A stretch of DNA of 63,606 bases, taken from contig JAIPGZ010000005.1 of NCBI GenBank assembly GCA_021735425.1, forward strand, positions 1 through 63,606. The letters are read 5' to 3'. Of this stretch, positions 13,811-27,199 are shown piece by piece. The position numbers and the translations under genes are program-made. The stretch is from Candidatus Altimarinota bacterium (GTDB lineage: Bacteria > Patescibacteriota > Gracilibacteria > JAHISY01). Under the pieces are notes generated by a model. It was not told the DNA's origin. It saw only the letters and a list, made by a program, of their open reading frames with translations, and did no database searches. The first letter of the stretch is position 1; the number at the start of each line of letters is the position of its first letter.

Positions 13811-14503
13811 ATGAAAATTTTTCAAAATATTAAATTCCCGAAAAATAAAAAACTTTCACCACTGCAGGTGGCTTTCGTCGACTTTGTCACCGATGTTGTC
13901 GTAATTTTTTTCCTCGTCTTGGTCGTCGTCAAACCTCTTTTTTTCGCACCCTTTCGTGTTCAGCAGCAGTCGATGACACCGAATATTCTCGATGGGGAAT
14001 TCATCATCGTTTGGAAGACGCCTTATGTTTTTGGGGCGGAATACGAACGCGACGACATCGTCGTTTTCAAACCCGACGGCGGAGAAAATTATTTAATCAA
14101 AAGAGTCGTCGGACTGCCGGGAGAGACTTTACGTTTCACGGGAGGCTTCACTTGGGTCCAGAATGCCGCCGGAGAATTCGAGAGATTAAACGAAGATTTC
14201 CTCGCCCCACAAAATTTAGGTAATACTTGTGCTGGTAGTGGGTCTTGTCCGAACTCAGAAAAAGACCGCAATATTGATTTCGAGGTTCCCGAAGGAAAAT
14301 ATTTCGTAATGGGTGATAATCGTCTCGCTTCGCGTGACTCGCGGAGTTGCTTCGAGACGAGCTGCAATGACGAGAATTCTAATTTCCTCGAGCAGAAAAT
14401 AATCGAAGGAAGAGCGATTCTAACTTTCGCCCGATTTTGGATTGAGGATGGTGAGAGGAATTTCACACTCAAAAACGTCAGAGTTCTCCGCAATCCTAAT
14501 TAA
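13811..14503 (+). CDS. lepB: Signal peptidase I
   Basis: LepB cleaves signal peptides from exported proteins at the outer face of the membrane. The 230-residue protein has one transmembrane segment (about residues 25-48), the catalytic serine in RVQQQSMTP (about residue 57), the catalytic lysine in YLIKRVVGLPGE (about residue 97) and the box GDNRLASRDSR (about residue 171). A segment with paired cysteines (NTCAGSGSCP, CFETSC) is inserted in the outer domain and may form disulfides. A -10 (GTGCTAAACT) lies 10 nt before the start. It fits the many secreted proteins in the window. Confidence 0.95.
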   Translation: MKIFQNIKFPKNKKLSPLQVAFVDFVTDVVVIFFLVLVVVKPLFFAPFRVQQQSMTPNILDGEFIIVWKTPYVFGAEYERDDIVVFKPDGGENYLIKRVVGLPGETLRFTGGFTWVQNAAGEFERLNEDFLAPQNLGNTCAGSGSCPNSEKDRNIDFEVPEGKYFVMGDNRLASRDSRSCFETSCNDENSNFLEQKIIEGRAILTFARFWIEDGERNFTLKNVRVLRNPN

Positions 14504-14514
14504 AGGATACCCAC

Positions 14515-15240
14515 TTATTTGGTTAAAATTCGCAAAAATCGTTCCAAATTATGCAAGCCGCCTTTTTCGAACTGTCGAAAAAGTTCGCTGCCGAGAATTC
14601 CAATCGTGCCTCCTGCTTGGACGATTTGCTGAAGATCTTTTCGAGATTTCACCCCGAAACCAACTCCGAGCGGAAGCGACGTGAAACGTTTAACTCGAGC
14701 TAGAAATTTTTTCAAATTTTTTCCAAACTCAGTTTGACTACCGGTGATGCCAAGTCGCGCGACGCAATAAATCCAACCACGCGCCGCTACCGCAATTTTC
14801 CTCAAAGTAATCTCAGAAATATTCGGCGCGACGACAAAAATTAAATCAAGCTTATTTTTACGACAAATTTTGAGCAATTCGCCAGCTTCCTCGACTGGCA
14901 AATCAGGAATAATAAAACCTTTTACTCCCGCCTTTTGTGCTGCCTTCACAAATTTCGTAATCCCAAAACGAAAGACTGGGTTGAAATAAGTCATTAAATA
15001 AAAATCTGTTTGGGGAAATTTCTGGGAAATTTTGGCGGCAAAATTAAGACAAATCTGCGGCGTAATTTTGTTTTGCAACGCAACAGAATTCGCGGCGGCA
15101 ATGACCGGCCCATCGGCGACTGGGTCAGAAAATGGAACTTGCAACTCCACAATCGCCGAATGCGCAGCGAGAATTTCAACAATTTTTGTCGAAGTTTTCA
15201 AATCCGGAAATCCGACGACAGTATGGGAAGCGATTTTCAT
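14515..15240 (-). CDS. trpA: Tryptophan synthase alpha-chain homologue
   Basis: Start taken at ATG 15240 (241 residues); the longer frame to 15417 overlaps rmlB and adds repeat-derived sequence. TrpA splits indole-3-glycerol phosphate to indole. The active-site glutamate and aspartate are seen in VELQVPFSDPVADGP, followed by MTYFNPVFRFG, FIIPDLPVEEAGEL and the phosphate-binding LGVGFGVKSRKDLQQI. The N-terminus is about 25 residues shorter than usual, starting at HTVVGFPDL where homologues read TAGDP. No trpB or other trp gene is nearby, so it may use another partner or act on indole salvage. Confidence 0.88.
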   Translation of the reverse strand: MKIASHTVVGFPDLKTSTKIVEILAAHSAIVELQVPFSDPVADGPVIAAANSVALQNKITPQICLNFAAKISQKFPQTDFYLMTYFNPVFRFGITKFVKAAQKAGVKGFIIPDLPVEEAGELLKICRKNKLDLIFVVAPNISEITLRKIAVAARGWIYCVARLGITGSQTEFGKNLKKFLARVKRFTSLPLGVGFGVKSRKDLQQIVQAGGTIGILGSELFRQFEKGGLHNLERFLRILTK

Positions 15241-22916: not shown

Positions 22917-22936
22917 GGAACGGGCATGCCCATTCC
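22913..22936 (+). repeat. REP-like palindrome, copy 1 (GTAG foot)
   Basis: GTAG followed by GGAACGGGCATGCCCATTCC, one mismatch from the perfect palindrome of copies 2 and 3. The TAG stop of the TraG-like gene is the TAG of the GTAG foot. Confidence 0.8.
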
Positions 22937-22967
22937 GGATAATAAATAGAATCGACTAATCCGTTTT

Positions 22968-23510
22968 TTAAAAATTATTTTTATCCTTCGCCCAATTCTC
23001 AGGATTCGACGAAATATATTCGCGAATGAGATTTAATTCCTCGTCGTCGCGAATTATGTGGTCATGGAATGATTTTTGCCACGCGAAATCCATCCGAATT
23101 TTTTGATGAATTTCTTTGGATGCGGCTGATTTGAATGAACCGAGAATTGCGGATAAATTGGATTTTTTTGAGGAGGAACGGGCATGCCCGTTCCCTACGT
23201 CCGCGTTTTCCAAATTTACCGCGTTTTCCACGCCGTTTATCGAATTCCCAATCCGCACAATTCCATGAATATGATTCGGCATCACGACGAATTCATCTAA
23301 TTTCGTGTCGGGGAAATGCGTCGGAATTTCCTGCCAACATTTCACGACAATTTTCCCGCAATCGTTCAAAATCATTTTGTCATCGTGAATCTCACCGAAA
23401 AAATGTTCGCGGTTTTCGGTACAAATCGTGACGAAGTAGGCACCGCCGGTGGCATAATCGAAAAAGGCGAGGCGGGTGCGTTTACGATTGGGTCGGACAA
23501 CAACGGACAT
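22968..23510 (-). CDS. REP-associated tyrosine transposase (RAYT)
   Basis: A 180-residue Y1/HUH transposase of the TnpA_REP type. It shows GAYFVTICTENREHFFGEI, the HUH motif VVMPNHIHGIV near residue 85, and the family end FHDHIIRDDEELNLIREYISSNPENWAKD. Most relatives have Tyr in the (Y)YEHIIR box; here it reads SFHDHIIR, so the nucleophile may be the Tyr of REYI or the enzyme may be weakened. A GTAG-footed palindrome is inserted in its own coding sequence, giving the in-frame peptide DVGNGHARSS near residues 106-115. RAYTs are known to bind and move REP palindromes with a GTAG foot; three such units lie within 700 bp here. Confidence 0.88.
   Translation of the reverse strand: MSVVVRPNRKRTRLAFFDYATGGAYFVTICTENREHFFGEIHDDKMILNDCGKIVVKCWQEIPTHFPDTKLDEFVVMPNHIHGIVRIGNSINGVENAVNLENADVGNGHARSSSKKSNLSAILGSFKSAASKEIHQKIRMDFAWQKSFHDHIIRDDEELNLIREYISSNPENWAKDKNNF
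23175..23198 (-). repeat. REP-like palindrome, copy 2, inside the transposase gene
   Basis: Minus strand reads GTAG then GGAACGGGCATGCCCGTTCC, a perfect 20-bp palindrome, in frame within the RAYT gene. Confidence 0.85.
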
Positions 23511-23581
23511 CGAAATAATTCTAACCCGAGAATGTGGCCCTGTCGGGGCACGCCGTAAAAAAACACAACAGGTGAATCATC

Positions 23582-23605
23582 GTAGGGAACGGGCATGCCC
23601 GTTCC
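23582..23605 (+). repeat. REP-like palindrome, copy 3
   Basis: GTAG (23582-23585) then the perfect palindrome GGAACGGGCATGCCCGTTCC (23586-23605), 72 nt upstream of the transposase start. Gap 23511-23879 holds this unit, a MITE-like copy and a leuS 3'-end copy, and no gene. Confidence 0.85.
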
Positions 23606-23789: not shown

Positions 23790-23829
23790 CTAAACCACCA
23801 AATTCACCATCTTCCCCGGCACGAAGACT
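23790..23829 (-). repeat. leuS 3'-end copy A
   Basis: On the minus strand it reads VFVPGKMVNLVV and a TAG stop, which is the normal end of a leucyl-tRNA synthetase. The true leuS end is 0.9 kb away (24677). About 35 bp are shared with copy B with one mismatch. Confidence 0.8.
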
Positions 23830-23879
23830 TGACTTTTGTCGAAAAAATGTAAGAATGGTTTTTTTAATTAACACCCACT

Positions 23880-24071
23880 ATGAAAGATACTCCAAACTCT
23901 ACACTGATTCAAACAACAAAAGAAGAGGAATTAATTGCTTTTAGTAAGATCGAAGAATCACCAGAGGACATAAAAGCGAAAGCAAAATTGCACTTAGAAA
24001 AAGGACTCTCTCCTACCCAAGCATTGGCATTAGCGTTAAGTCGAGAGAAAATTAATAAAAATCTTTCTTAG
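23880..24071 (+). CDS. Small hypothetical protein between leuS-end copies
   Basis: A 63-residue acidic helical protein (MKDTPNSTLIQTTKEEELIAF...) with no recognised domain. Two helices end in KGLSPTQALALALSREK. A promoter-like TTGACT-N16-AAGAAT begins at the edge of leuS-end copy A and reads into it, and it stops 9 nt before copy B. It may be a cassette gene, for example an antitoxin-sized protein, but that is guesswork. Confidence 0.5.
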   Translation: MKDTPNSTLIQTTKEEELIAFSKIEESPEDIKAKAKLHLEKGLSPTQALALALSREKINKNLS

Positions 24072-24079
24072 TTCAGCCC

Positions 24080-24122
24080 CTAAACCACCAAATTCACCAT
24101 CTTCCCTGGCACGAAAATCTCA
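24080..24122 (-). repeat. leuS 3'-end copy B
   Basis: Minus strand reads EIFVPGKMVNLVV then TAG. It shares about 37 bp with the real leuS end (differing at two or three bases) and 35 bp with copy A. Confidence 0.8.
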
Positions 24123-24144
24123 TTTTTTTATGATGAAAAAACTC

Positions 24145-24173
24145 TTGAAATGCTGTTACGTTTTTGATAAAAT
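24145..24173 (+). promoter_or_regulatory. Strong promoter TTGAAA-N17-TAAAAT
   Basis: -35 TTGAAA (24145-24150), 17-nt spacer, extended -10 TGA-TAAAAT (24168-24173). The expected transcript start (about 24180) coincides with the 5' arm of the structured RNA candidate, and no reading frame follows on this strand. Confidence 0.7.
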
Positions 24174-24179
24174 TGATTT

Positions 24180-24256
24180 GTAAATAGTGCTGGGAGGTTT
24201 CGTACCTCGACGCCGCCATCGGCTTATGGTCGTAAGTGGGAGACAGCACTATTTTC
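24180..24256 (+). ncRNA. Candidate structured small RNA
   Basis: A perfect 11-bp closing stem, AAATAGTGCTG (24182-24192) with CAGCACTATTT (24244-24254), encloses two hairpins: GAGGT/ACCTC with loop TTCGT (24194-24208), and ACG..CCAT/ATGG..CGT (24210-24233). The fold is a three-way junction, followed by TTTTCG. A consensus promoter ends 6-8 nt upstream. It does not match tRNA, SRP, 6S, tmRNA or riboswitch cores that I know. It is convergent with the nuclease-like gene, 5-7 nt from its stop. Confidence 0.6.
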
Positions 24257-24261
24257 GTTGT

Positions 24262-24657
24262 TTAATCAACGCGCATCTCTTTGGGGCGACTGTAAGTAAA
24301 TACAGAATAGACATGTTTTGGACTTACTTCTTTTTGTCTCACAATTACAGTTACCCACTTTCCTCGGATAAAACCCGTGAAATTCCAGTAACGAGTTTTA
24401 CTATTTTCATCTTTTTTGAAAGCTTGGTAGGTGGTAGATTTTTCCAAGAGTTTTTTGGCGTGAGGCAGCAATTCCAGCCTAGAACATAATTCAGATATTT
24501 TTCTTTTTCGACTGTTGATATGCTCCCAGCCTGCCCTAGTCACATAAACCACTTCCCCTTGGAAAGCAGGACAACCTTTTTCACATCCTCGCCATTTTTC
24601 AAAATAAAAATCCTTTTGCTGCTTAATAAATTCATCGACATTTTCAGGAATATTCAT
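24262..24657 (-). CDS. Hypothetical protein, possibly BECR-fold nuclease
   Basis: A 131-residue protein. The pattern VVYVTRAGWEHINSRKRK, then helices (LLPHAKKLLEKSTTYQAF), then RYWNFTGFIRGKWVTVIVRQ and KHVYSVFTY is like that of small BECR-type (barnase/EndoU/colicin/RelE) nuclease domains, with a histidine after the first strand and a basic strand end. This is a fold-level guess by eye. It lies between leuS-end copy B and the true leuS end, convergent with the candidate RNA. It could be a toxin or a housekeeping RNA-binding protein. Confidence 0.55.
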   Translation of the reverse strand: MNIPENVDEFIKQQKDFYFEKWRGCEKGCPAFQGEVVYVTRAGWEHINSRKRKISELCSRLELLPHAKKLLEKSTTYQAFKKDENSKTRYWNFTGFIRGKWVTVIVRQKEVSPKHVYSVFTYSRPKEMRVD

Positions 24658-24676: not shown

Positions 24677-27199
24677 TCAATCTATTACCAAATTCACCAT
24701 CTTCCCCGGCACAAAAATCTCTTTGCGAATCTCCTTTCCCTCCAGCCACTTCTGAAGCTTCTCCGACTTTTTCGCCAAATCCAACGCTTCATCCTTCGAA
24801 ATATCCGCCGCCACAGAAATCGTGTCTCGGAGTTTGCCGTTCACTGAGATTGCCAAAGTAATTGTCTCATCTTGGGCTAGTTTTGGATCGAACGACGGCC
24901 AGGCTTCGAGATGAATCGATTTCTTGTGGTCCAGTTTCTCCCAAAGTTCTTCCGCCAGATGCGGTGCAAAAGGCGCGAGAATGATAAGAAGTTTTTCAAG
25001 TTCTTTTTTTGTTAAAAGATGCTCTTCTGTTTGGTGCAAGATAACTCCATCTCTTTTTTTAACATTTTCAATTCTTAGATAATTTATAAAACTCATCAAT
25101 GTTGAAATTGAGGTATTAAATTTAAAATTCTCTATATCTTGAGAAACCTTCTTAATAGTTTTATGTAACATTTTCACATTTTTCGTATTTTTGGTTTCTC
25201 TTTCGATGGATTTTTTATTTTCTGGATTTACTTTAATAAAATAATCGTAGCTGTCTTTACAATTAATTGAATAATTCCAGACTTTTTCGAGAAATCGCCG
25301 CACACCCTCTACGCCACCTTCATTCCAGCTCGCAGCCTGATCGAAGGGTCCGATGAACATTTCATAAAGGCGCAGCGTGTCCGCGCCAAATTTCTCAATA
25401 ATCTCATCGGGATTGACGACGTTGCCCCGCGATTTCGACATTTTCTCGCCATCCGGCCCGAGAATCATTCCGTGGGAGATTCTTTTGGCGTAAGGCTCGG
25501 GCGTCGGGACGAGCTTCTGGTCGAAAAGGAATTTGTGCCAAAAGCGCGAATAAAGGAGATGAAGAACGGTGTGTTCCATCCCGCCGTTGTAGAGATCGAC
25601 TGGCAGCCATTTTTTTAATTTCTCCGGCGCGGCGAAAGCTTCATCATTTTGCGGATCGATGTAGCGGAGGAAATACCAGCTCGAACCCGCCCAGTTTGGC
25701 ATCGTGTCGGTTTCTCGTTTTGCCGCCCCGCCACATTTCGGGCAGTCGCAATTCACCCAATTTTCAATCGAGGCAAGCGGGGATTCACCTGTCTCTGTCG
25801 GCTCGTAGTTCTCGACTTCAGGTAGTTCGAGCGGCAAATATTTCAATTCGAGAGGAACTGTCCCACATTTCGAGCAATGCACGATGGGAATCGGCTCACC
25901 CCAATATCTCTGGCGACTGAAAATCCAATCGCGTAATTTGAAATTAATCGCCGCCTTGCCGACCTTTTTATTTCCGAGGAATTCGATAATCTGCTTTTTG
26001 AATTCGGCAGTTTTCAATCCGTCGAACTCGCCGGAGTTTTTAGCAATTCCGTCGCCAGTGAAACATTTTTCGCTTGAACCTTTCGGCAATCTCACCTGCC
26101 TGCCGGTAGGCATGACCACCTCGCGAATCTCGATTCCAAACTTCGTCGCGAATTCAAAATCCCGCTCGTCGTGCGCCGGCACCGCCATGATTGCGCCCGT
26201 CCCGTAACCCGCGAGGACATAATCCGCCACGAAAATTGGGATTTCCTCGTCGTTCACTGGATTGATTGCCATGACGCCTTCCAGCCGAACGCCTGTTTTT
26301 TCTTTGGACAATTCTGTGCGCTCCAAATCCGACTTCGCCGACGCGGCTGCTAAATACTGCTCAACTTCTTTCCAATTCTTGATTTGCGGTTTGAGCTTTT
26401 GAAGCAACTTAGCTTCCGGCGCGAGGACAGTGTAAGTCGCGCCAAACAAAGTGTCGGGGCGCGTCGTGAAAACTTTAATCTTTTCGGCAGAATCCGTAAT
26501 TGCGAAATCGACTTCCGCACCTTCGCTGCGTCCAATCCAATTCTGTTGTTGAATTTTAATCCGCGGCAGGAAGTCCACAGTGTCGAGTCCATCGAGTAAT
26601 TTTTGCGCGTATTTCGTAATCGCCAGCATCCACTGTTTTTTCACTCGTCGTTCAATTGCACCACCGCAGCGTTCGCATTTTCCGTCGACAACCTCTTCGT
26701 TCGCCAAACCGATTTTGCAATCGACGCACCAATTAATCGGAATTTCGGCTTGGTAGGCGAGACCAGCTTCGAAAAACTTGAGGAAAATAAATTGCGTCCA
26801 TTTGAAATATTTTGGATCGGTCGTGTCGACGACCCTATTCCAGTCGAACGAAAAACCGATTGATTTTAGTTGTTTCGTGAAATTCGCGATATTTTTTTCC
26901 GTCGCATCGCGCGGTTTGATTTTATTTTTAATCGCGAAATTCTCCGTCGGCAGTCCGAAAGCGTCGAAACCGATTGGGAAGAGAACATTCTTGCCTTCCA
27001 TCCTTTTCTTCCTGGCAACAATATCGAGCGCGGTGTAGCTCCGGCAATGCCCGACATGCAGACCATCGCCAGACGGGTAGGGGAATTCAACCAGCAGATA
27101 AAACTTCTCTTTCGGGGAATCGTCGCTGGCAGCGTAAATTTGTGCAGCCTCCCATTTTGACTGCCACTTTGACTCGAACTTTTTGTGATCAAAACTCAT
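24677..27199 (-). CDS. leuS: Leucyl-tRNA synthetase
   Basis: LeuS charges tRNA-Leu. The 840-residue protein has the HIGH box as FPYPSGDGLHVGH (residues 39-51), the zinc-like CVDCKIG..CERCGG, the editing domain (TRPDTLFGATY, GTGAIMAVPAHDERD), KMSKSRGNVVNP near residue 586, and the C-terminal domain ending VPGKMVNLVID. An in-frame palindromic insert (26095-26114) adds PTGRQVRL within the editing region. Codons between about 25000 and 25290 are visibly more AT-rich than the rest. Two extra 3'-end copies lie downstream. The leader between the promoter-like TAAAAT and the ATG is made of stutter repeats. Confidence 0.97.
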   Translation of the reverse strand: MSFDHKKFESKWQSKWEAAQIYAASDDSPKEKFYLLVEFPYPSGDGLHVGHCRSYTALDIVARKKRMEGKNVLFPIGFDAFGLPTENFAIKNKIKPRDATEKNIANFTKQLKSIGFSFDWNRVVDTTDPKYFKWTQFIFLKFFEAGLAYQAEIPINWCVDCKIGLANEEVVDGKCERCGGAIERRVKKQWMLAITKYAQKLLDGLDTVDFLPRIKIQQQNWIGRSEGAEVDFAITDSAEKIKVFTTRPDTLFGATYTVLAPEAKLLQKLKPQIKNWKEVEQYLAAASAKSDLERTELSKEKTGVRLEGVMAINPVNDEEIPIFVADYVLAGYGTGAIMAVPAHDERDFEFATKFGIEIREVVMPTGRQVRLPKGSSEKCFTGDGIAKNSGEFDGLKTAEFKKQIIEFLGNKKVGKAAINFKLRDWIFSRQRYWGEPIPIVHCSKCGTVPLELKYLPLELPEVENYEPTETGESPLASIENWVNCDCPKCGGAAKRETDTMPNWAGSSWYFLRYIDPQNDEAFAAPEKLKKWLPVDLYNGGMEHTVLHLLYSRFWHKFLFDQKLVPTPEPYAKRISHGMILGPDGEKMSKSRGNVVNPDEIIEKFGADTLRLYEMFIGPFDQAASWNEGGVEGVRRFLEKVWNYSINCKDSYDYFIKVNPENKKSIERETKNTKNVKMLHKTIKKVSQDIENFKFNTSISTLMSFINYLRIENVKKRDGVILHQTEEHLLTKKELEKLLIILAPFAPHLAEELWEKLDHKKSIHLEAWPSFDPKLAQDETITLAISVNGKLRDTISVAADISKDEALDLAKKSEKLQKWLEGKEIRKEIFVPGKMVNLVID
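26095..26114 (-). repeat. In-frame palindromic insert in leuS
   Basis: GCCTGCC/GGTAGGC (26098-26111) is a near-perfect palindrome with one G-T pair. It encodes PTGRQV between EVVM and LPKGSSEKCF. The same type of Gly-Arg-Gln peptide from a CCTGCC-GGCAGG repeat occurs in proteins of many environmental bacteria, from memory. Confidence 0.55.

Follow-up and report, generated by a model that had tools for sequence, protein, structure and literature searches.

A small structured RNA and the gene convergent with it, which recur together across the Patescibacteria, suggest an undescribed kind of toxin that is restrained by an RNA, and not by a protein. The pair was found in the window analyzed here, which is one whole contig of 63,606 b from a genome of 0.997 Mb. 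The RNA folds as a three-way junction behind a promoter of its own, and the gene encodes a small basic protein. This RNA is probably an antitoxin that binds and silences a ribonuclease toxin of the RelE fold, in an arrangement that resembles the type III systems, and is single-copy, mostly convergent, and separately promoted.

The RNA of the window, its protein neighbor, and the leuS slot

The first-pass annotation of this DNA had described an 11-bp stem enclosing two hairpins in a three-way junction, preceded by a TTGAAA-N17-TAAAAT promoter, and both are present in the sequence and the fold (Table 1). The extent given for the RNA was correct in part, as the molecule comprises about 73 nt plus a short U-run, and position 24145, taken as its start, belongs to the promoter and not to the RNA. 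The minimum free energy of positions 24145-24256 is -31.4 kcal/mol (z = -2.28 relative to dinucleotide shuffles, with 5 of 200 shuffles as good), which means that the RNA is unusual to only a moderate degree when judged by its folding energy alone. The promoter has two mismatches in its 12 consensus positions and ends 8 nt ahead of the P1 stem, which places the predicted start of the transcript at the base of this stem. No open frame had been reported here, and the sole frame that overlaps the RNA is a GTG frame (24187-24489) that runs antisense through the neighboring gene, with no reading frame being conserved at this site. A search of Rfam 15 with the window RNA recovered no family at the gathering cut-off and nothing convincing even at E values of up to 10, where the matches to snoRNA and lncRNA families were rejected as the product of chance in A/T-rich DNA.

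Table 1. Position of the RNA, the protein gene, and the flanking repeats in the window.
Feature	Positions	Strand	Details or basis
Three-way-junction RNA, candidate antitoxin	24182..24254	+	Fold, homologue in genome G005, covariation, no Rfam match
P1 closing stem	24182-24192/24244-24254	+	11 bp, perfect, AAATAGTGCTG / CAGCACTATTT
P2 hairpin of the RNA	24194-24198/24204-24208	+	
P3 hairpin of the RNA	24213-24216/24236-24239 and 24220-24224/24228-24232	+	
U-run of the RNA	from about 24251	+	
RNA promoter	24145..24173	+	TTGAAA (24145-24150), 17-nt spacer, TAAAAT (24168-24173)
131-aa basic protein, predicted RelE/BECR-like ribonuclease toxin	24262..24657	-	Homologues, AlphaFold2, structure matches
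leuS 3' end at the right edge of the RNA/toxin cassette (repeat copy 3)	24680..24727	-	Direct repeat D1
leuS 3'-end duplicate at the left edge of the RNA/toxin cassette (copy 2)	24080..24127	-	Direct repeat D1
leuS 3'-end duplicate at the left edge of the second cassette (copy 1)	23790..23837	-	Direct repeat D1

A second genome of the same family (G005) contains an RNA that is 86% identical to that of the window, and is convergent with a homologue (78% identical) of the 131-aa protein. This pair (locus L010) occupies a different chromosomal site, flanked on one side by what we take to be metK and on the other by a presumed RlmH-like gene and tRNA-Gly, and its integrity at a different site indicates that the RNA and the protein travel together. 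Two base pairs differ between these RNAs on both sides and four on one side only, with all four becoming G-U pairs on the plus strand. On the minus strand, these four changes would be A-C mismatches, which identifies the plus strand as the strand of the RNA. The P1 stem of G005 has lost two A-U pairs at its outer end.

The protein has a pI of 9.6, and its gene begins about 20 nt past the leuS stop codon on the same strand. An AlphaFold2 model based on 25 homologues (pLDDT 92) predicts helices followed by a four-strand sheet, for which the best VIA-align match was the CdiA (CDI) toxin 6cp9 (Z 5.3 over 92 residues), followed by 7vd7 (Z 5.1), BrnT (4.6), MqsR (4.3), and others, among them RelE. 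When a group D protein (see below) was modeled, 6cp9, 7vd7, BrnT, and HigB ranked first. Both lists are thus headed by the same superfamily, and the predicted fold, at these weak scores, appears to be nearest to the RelE/BECR ribonuclease toxins. Folds of the ToxN type are absent from the lists of matches, an absence that does not exclude such a fold, and a Foldseek search with the predicted structure returned no match at E ≤ 0.001. Pfam and NCBIfam gave no match above the cut-off, with LPD3 and PBECR3 (Pfam) falling below it, and no convincing family was found in PADLOC, PHROGs, or NCBIfam, where the one PADLOC match, at locus L028, was to PDC-M04B (E 2e-4). The protein is basic in all 46 cases tested (pI 8.7-10.6), globular, and mostly about 125-190 aa in length, with two truncated frames being shorter. 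The residues His46, Arg60, Gln78, Val104, and Ser118 are conserved, and Arg107 nearly so, and there is no consistent gene for a protein antitoxin upstream across the loci.

The location of the pair in a leuS-end cassette, as proposed previously, was confirmed by the 48-bp copies of the leuS 3' end that flank it, a repeat found in only three places in the genome, and by a sibling genome with a two-gene cassette in the same slot. In this sibling (G001, locus L068, G001:C89, 1493-2049), genes of 80 aa and 81 aa come after the leuS 3' end, between leuS-end repeats (33 nt, at 94%), and the 81-aa protein is ParE/RelE-like, with a weak match to ParE in Pfam. Site-specific insertion seems, from the leuS-end copies, to have occurred repeatedly at leuS, and the slot appears to be a place where toxin-antitoxin-like cassettes are exchanged.

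Two further features of this region were observed. A second cassette (window 23790-24127) lies between leuS 3'-end copies and carries a 63-aa frame (23880-24071, plus strand), which has no match in Pfam. At 22968-23510, on the minus strand, there is an IS200-like (Y1) transposase gene, with palindromic copies similar to GGAACGGGCATGCCCGTTCC around it (22918-23600), an arrangement that recalls REP elements and their RAYT-type transposases.

Linkage, structure, and promoters across the Patescibacteria

A protein profile built from two rows recovered homologues in 19 of the 353 genomes of the class (23 loci), and 38 of 379 genomes sampled evenly across the phylum proved to have the family when a wider profile was used. 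A covariance model made from only two RNAs, those of the window and of G005, was run on the 23 homologue loci with filters off, and of the 12 distinct matches that scored best (E no higher than about 0.07), 11 were convergent and lay immediately beyond the gene's 3' end, the twelfth being a tRNA. Following these first blind matches, most RNA positions were set by folding and by eye. A three-way-junction RNA is convergent at the 3' end of the gene in 46 of the 48 loci, a set that leaves out L047, where the gene is interrupted, and L059, where it runs off the contig. The median distance from the 3' end of the convergent RNA to the stop codon is 9.5 nt, and the RNA overlaps the gene at several loci. 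In locus L019, the RNA is found upstream on the strand of the gene, and a U-run separates the two, so that the association is independent of the layout. In L024, there is no RNA, and the frame of the gene looks shifted or truncated. Each gene-linked locus has a single copy of the RNA, and Rfam 15 contains no family that matches these RNAs at the gathering cut-off in 40 homologue loci.

The looks of the cassette, which appears to be mobile, together with the existence of RNAs that stand alone, might be read as the chance adjacency of a structured RNA to an unrelated gene. This is the least credible of the readings considered here, as the pair is kept in 47 of the 48 loci and in distant families, in which protein identity falls to about 23%. 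Beyond the Patescibacteria, the analysis covered phages, plasmids, and viral contigs, together with a single profile scan of genome contigs. No match to the protein was found in the phages, plasmids, or viral contigs, so that neither carriage by phages nor a role in defense or addiction is directly supported, and exact-pattern scans of the genome and viral contigs, with patterns that were too strict, also returned no match. Adjacent modules, of group D and then group A, each with its own convergent RNA, were observed at G240:C25, about 14,100-15,120 (L014, L031). Three loci (L022, L028, and L029) have a tRNA gene on the strand of the RNA, at a distance of roughly 100-120 nt upstream, and tRNA 3' ends may be further insertion sites.

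The RNAs were assigned by eye to four sequence groups, A (which includes the window RNA), B, C, and D, all of which have the P1 closing stem and two inner hairpins, with groups A, B, and C also sharing GA-rich junctions, such as GA...GAGA. The core of the RNA varies from 49 to 88 nt across the loci. In an energy scan for three-way junctions, the median was -26.7, compared with -10.7 in shuffles and 0 in the 5' flanks, and at 37 of 46 loci no more than two of 40 shuffles reached the observed energy, although the scan discriminates only moderately, because short junctions arise by chance. Given that each RNA was folded separately, its paired fraction is close to 1 by construction, and the test is provided by the counts based on alignments. 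In the MAFFT alignments of group A (six sequences, including the window) and group D (10 sequences), 13 of 20 pairs have double-sided changes in either group, none of 500 shuffles reached any of five covariation measures, and slid structures dropped to 35-52% pairing. Compensatory changes were also seen in groups B and D1. The type of RNA follows the clade of the protein, with the minimum number of changes, four, in comparison with 17.8 when shuffled, which shows that the two have evolved in step.

The best match to TTGACA-N15-19-TATAAT within the 55 nt that precede the RNA had a mean of 2.5 mismatches over 44 loci, compared with 4.7 in control windows, and in most of these loci, the -10 box ends 5-8 nt ahead of P1. 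This enrichment is the strongest sign that the RNA may be a separate transcript. With this enrichment, the strong covariation found once the distant homologues were added, pairing that survives the base changes in the 86% identical RNA of the second genome, and no convincing match in Rfam, the earlier proposal of a structured RNA that is new and has a promoter of its own is supported. A U-run directly after the P1 stem, found at 24 of 46 loci, is what would be expected if the structure did no more than terminate transcription, perhaps in both directions, between convergent genes. This is very improbable, given the promoter immediately ahead of the stem, the separate terminator hairpin that follows the junction at many of the other loci, and the inner hairpins and junction letters, which are conserved and covary.

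RNAs without the gene and the probable action of the RNA on the protein

Four loci, in the genomes G165, G632, G383, and G533, have RNA with no gene. The locus in G383 (L092, G383:C5, 6231-6344) has two tandem RNAs of group D with a promoter that looks intact, and the other three have one RNA each. No relative of the protein was found in flanks of about 1.5 kb or more at these loci, and none of the 47 apparently intact genes is without the RNA, an asymmetry that is derived from few loci and from flanks of this length. Six of the 13 matches of the covariance model R3 were its own training rows, and the seven independent matches comprise three that adjoin the protein and four (at three loci) that are solo. 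The alignment of model R2 includes one reverse-complement row (L001, minus strand), and its genome-wide matches are mostly its own training rows, with only the new match in G165 being used as independent evidence. This match (L080, G165:C57, 798-1587) is a group B-like RNA located about 47-65 nt upstream of a DUF3800 gene on the same strand, with no RelE-like gene within the 6.5 kb examined, and may represent either a swap of partner or an orphan RNA.

An antitoxin can be kept alone, and a toxin cannot. The existence of solo RNAs and the lack of any intact gene without the RNA therefore follow the logic of a toxin-antitoxin system, albeit in small numbers. The agreement of RNA type with protein clade, the RNA-first order in L019, and the place of the cassette between leuS-end copies, in a slot that the sibling G001 fills with a two-gene cassette, favor this logic as well. 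From this asymmetry, the partner gene in 47 of 48 loci, and the protein fold nearest to RelE/BECR, we infer an RNA antitoxin, which the first-pass annotation had thought conceivable. The RNA and the convergent gene would then form a two-part module, in which the protein would be a small basic ribonuclease of the RelE/BECR kind, and the RNA, presumably transcribed from its own strong promoter, would fold into a compact three-way junction and bind the protein in trans, masking its RNA-binding or active site. If the synthesis of RNA were to stop, possibly through phage takeover, stress, or the loss of the cassette, the RNA would decay first, and the protein thus freed would cut cellular RNA.

The linkage of the RNA to the gene and its matching to the protein clades would be the same if the RNA were a cofactor, guide, or activator of an effector ribonucleoprotein involved in defense or RNA processing, and not an inhibitor. 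DUF3800, another nuclease-fold protein, has RNAs with the same three-way-junction shape, which are known only as putative ncRNAs (PMC10910872), and proteins beside RNAs of the DUF3800 type could likewise be part of such a complex. This reading is unlikely, as an activating cofactor leaves unexplained the presence of promoter-bearing solo RNAs alongside the absence of intact solo proteins, and the RNAs have no variable segment that resembles a guide, their loops being mostly short and structured.

The convergent layout, with the 3' end of the RNA so close to the stop codon and extending into the gene at several loci, also evokes a type I-like mechanism, in which an antisense RNA, paired with the toxin mRNA at its 3' end, would either destabilize this mRNA or hinder its transcription. 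The RNA of L019, which is upstream and on the same strand, cannot act as an antisense molecule, however, and the solo RNAs have no target, while most RNAs have no overlap with the coding sequence. Antisense pairing does not require the shape of the helices or the junction nucleotides (GA..GAGA), yet both are conserved on the RNA strand. The protein also differs from the toxins of the type I systems in being globular, and not a short hydrophobic peptide. This mode of action is, overall, a decidedly remote prospect, and an RNA that binds the protein itself is preferred.

Relationship to known systems and significance

With an RNA that would silence its toxin, the module would be closest in its mode of action to the type III systems or to AbiF/RCd22. 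In the type III systems (ToxIN, CptIN, and TenpIN/AbiQ), a small structured RNA silences an endoribonuclease, as proposed here, and there are few other parts. The RNA of these systems is encoded upstream of the toxin in a single operon, with a terminator between them and the antitoxin in tandem repeats (PMC5086642). Only L019 has this canonical order of RNA, U-run, and gene. The RNA of the module, by contrast, is single-copy at the gene-linked loci, with no tandem repeats, has its own promoter and is convergent in 46 of 48 loci, and forms a three-way junction, rather than a repeat-unit pseudoknot, while the protein appears, from its weak structural scores, to be RelE/BECR-like rather than ToxN-like. 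Given that the type III layout and repeat features are lacking, the module is not assigned to this type. In the AbiF/RCd22 system of C. difficile, an RNA motif silences the toxin encoded by the adjacent gene in trans, through direct RNA-protein contact (PMC12373285). The module is similar in having an RNA motif that adjoins a putative toxin gene, and in the direct binding proposed here, but the protein of AbiF/RCd22 belongs to the Abi_2/AbiF family, and this system has two repeated motifs, with the RNA upstream of the gene.

The closest genomic analogue of the module is the set of DUF3800 RNA motifs, which were reportedly described by Weinberg in 2017. The Rfam consensus structures of DUF3800-II (RF02961) and DUF3800-IX (RF02968) are three-way junctions, and these motifs, like the RNA of the module, are short and lie beside a small gene for a nuclease-fold protein. 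An RNase H fold is predicted for the DUF3800 proteins, which have putative ncRNAs as neighbors (PMC10910872). The RNAs of the module match no DUF3800 covariance model, however, and their partner is a RelE-like protein, with the exception of the solo RNA in G165. RNAs of DUF3800-II and DUF3800-IX occur near modules at L044 and L053. At L044 (G579:C36, 1408-2068), a DUF3800 gene and a convergent DUF3800-II RNA lie about 400-500 nt from the module.

The type II toxins of the BECR fold (RelE, ParE, and BrnT) resemble the protein of the module in their approximate size and basic character, and perhaps in their fold, as BECR toxins are the best matches to the predicted structure, at Z scores of only 4-5. 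The protein nevertheless has an N-terminal helical extension, and the module has no consistent protein antitoxin gene, the RNA being the only conserved partner. To our knowledge, the toxins of the RelE superfamily have protein antitoxins, and the pairing of a RelE-fold toxin with a structured RNA would join the type II toxins to the logic of type III. No report of the RNA/protein pair was found in the literature, in a search whose coverage excluded most subscription journals.

A broader view, which we hold tentatively and with less than even confidence, is that the RNAs constitute a large, hitherto undescribed superfamily of three-way-junction RNA antitoxins in the Patescibacteria, paired with at least two unrelated toxin folds, RelE/BECR-like and the RNase H-like DUF3800. 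If true, this would be a separate type of toxin-antitoxin system, with a convergent or upstream, separately promoted, single-copy RNA, which is sometimes retained alone as an anti-toxin. Genomes are very small in the Patescibacteria, for which few regulatory RNAs are known, and the module is present in about 10% of the genomes sampled from this phylum. Through the shared shape of the junction and the neighboring nuclease, the module also suggests a testable function for the DUF3800 RNA motifs.
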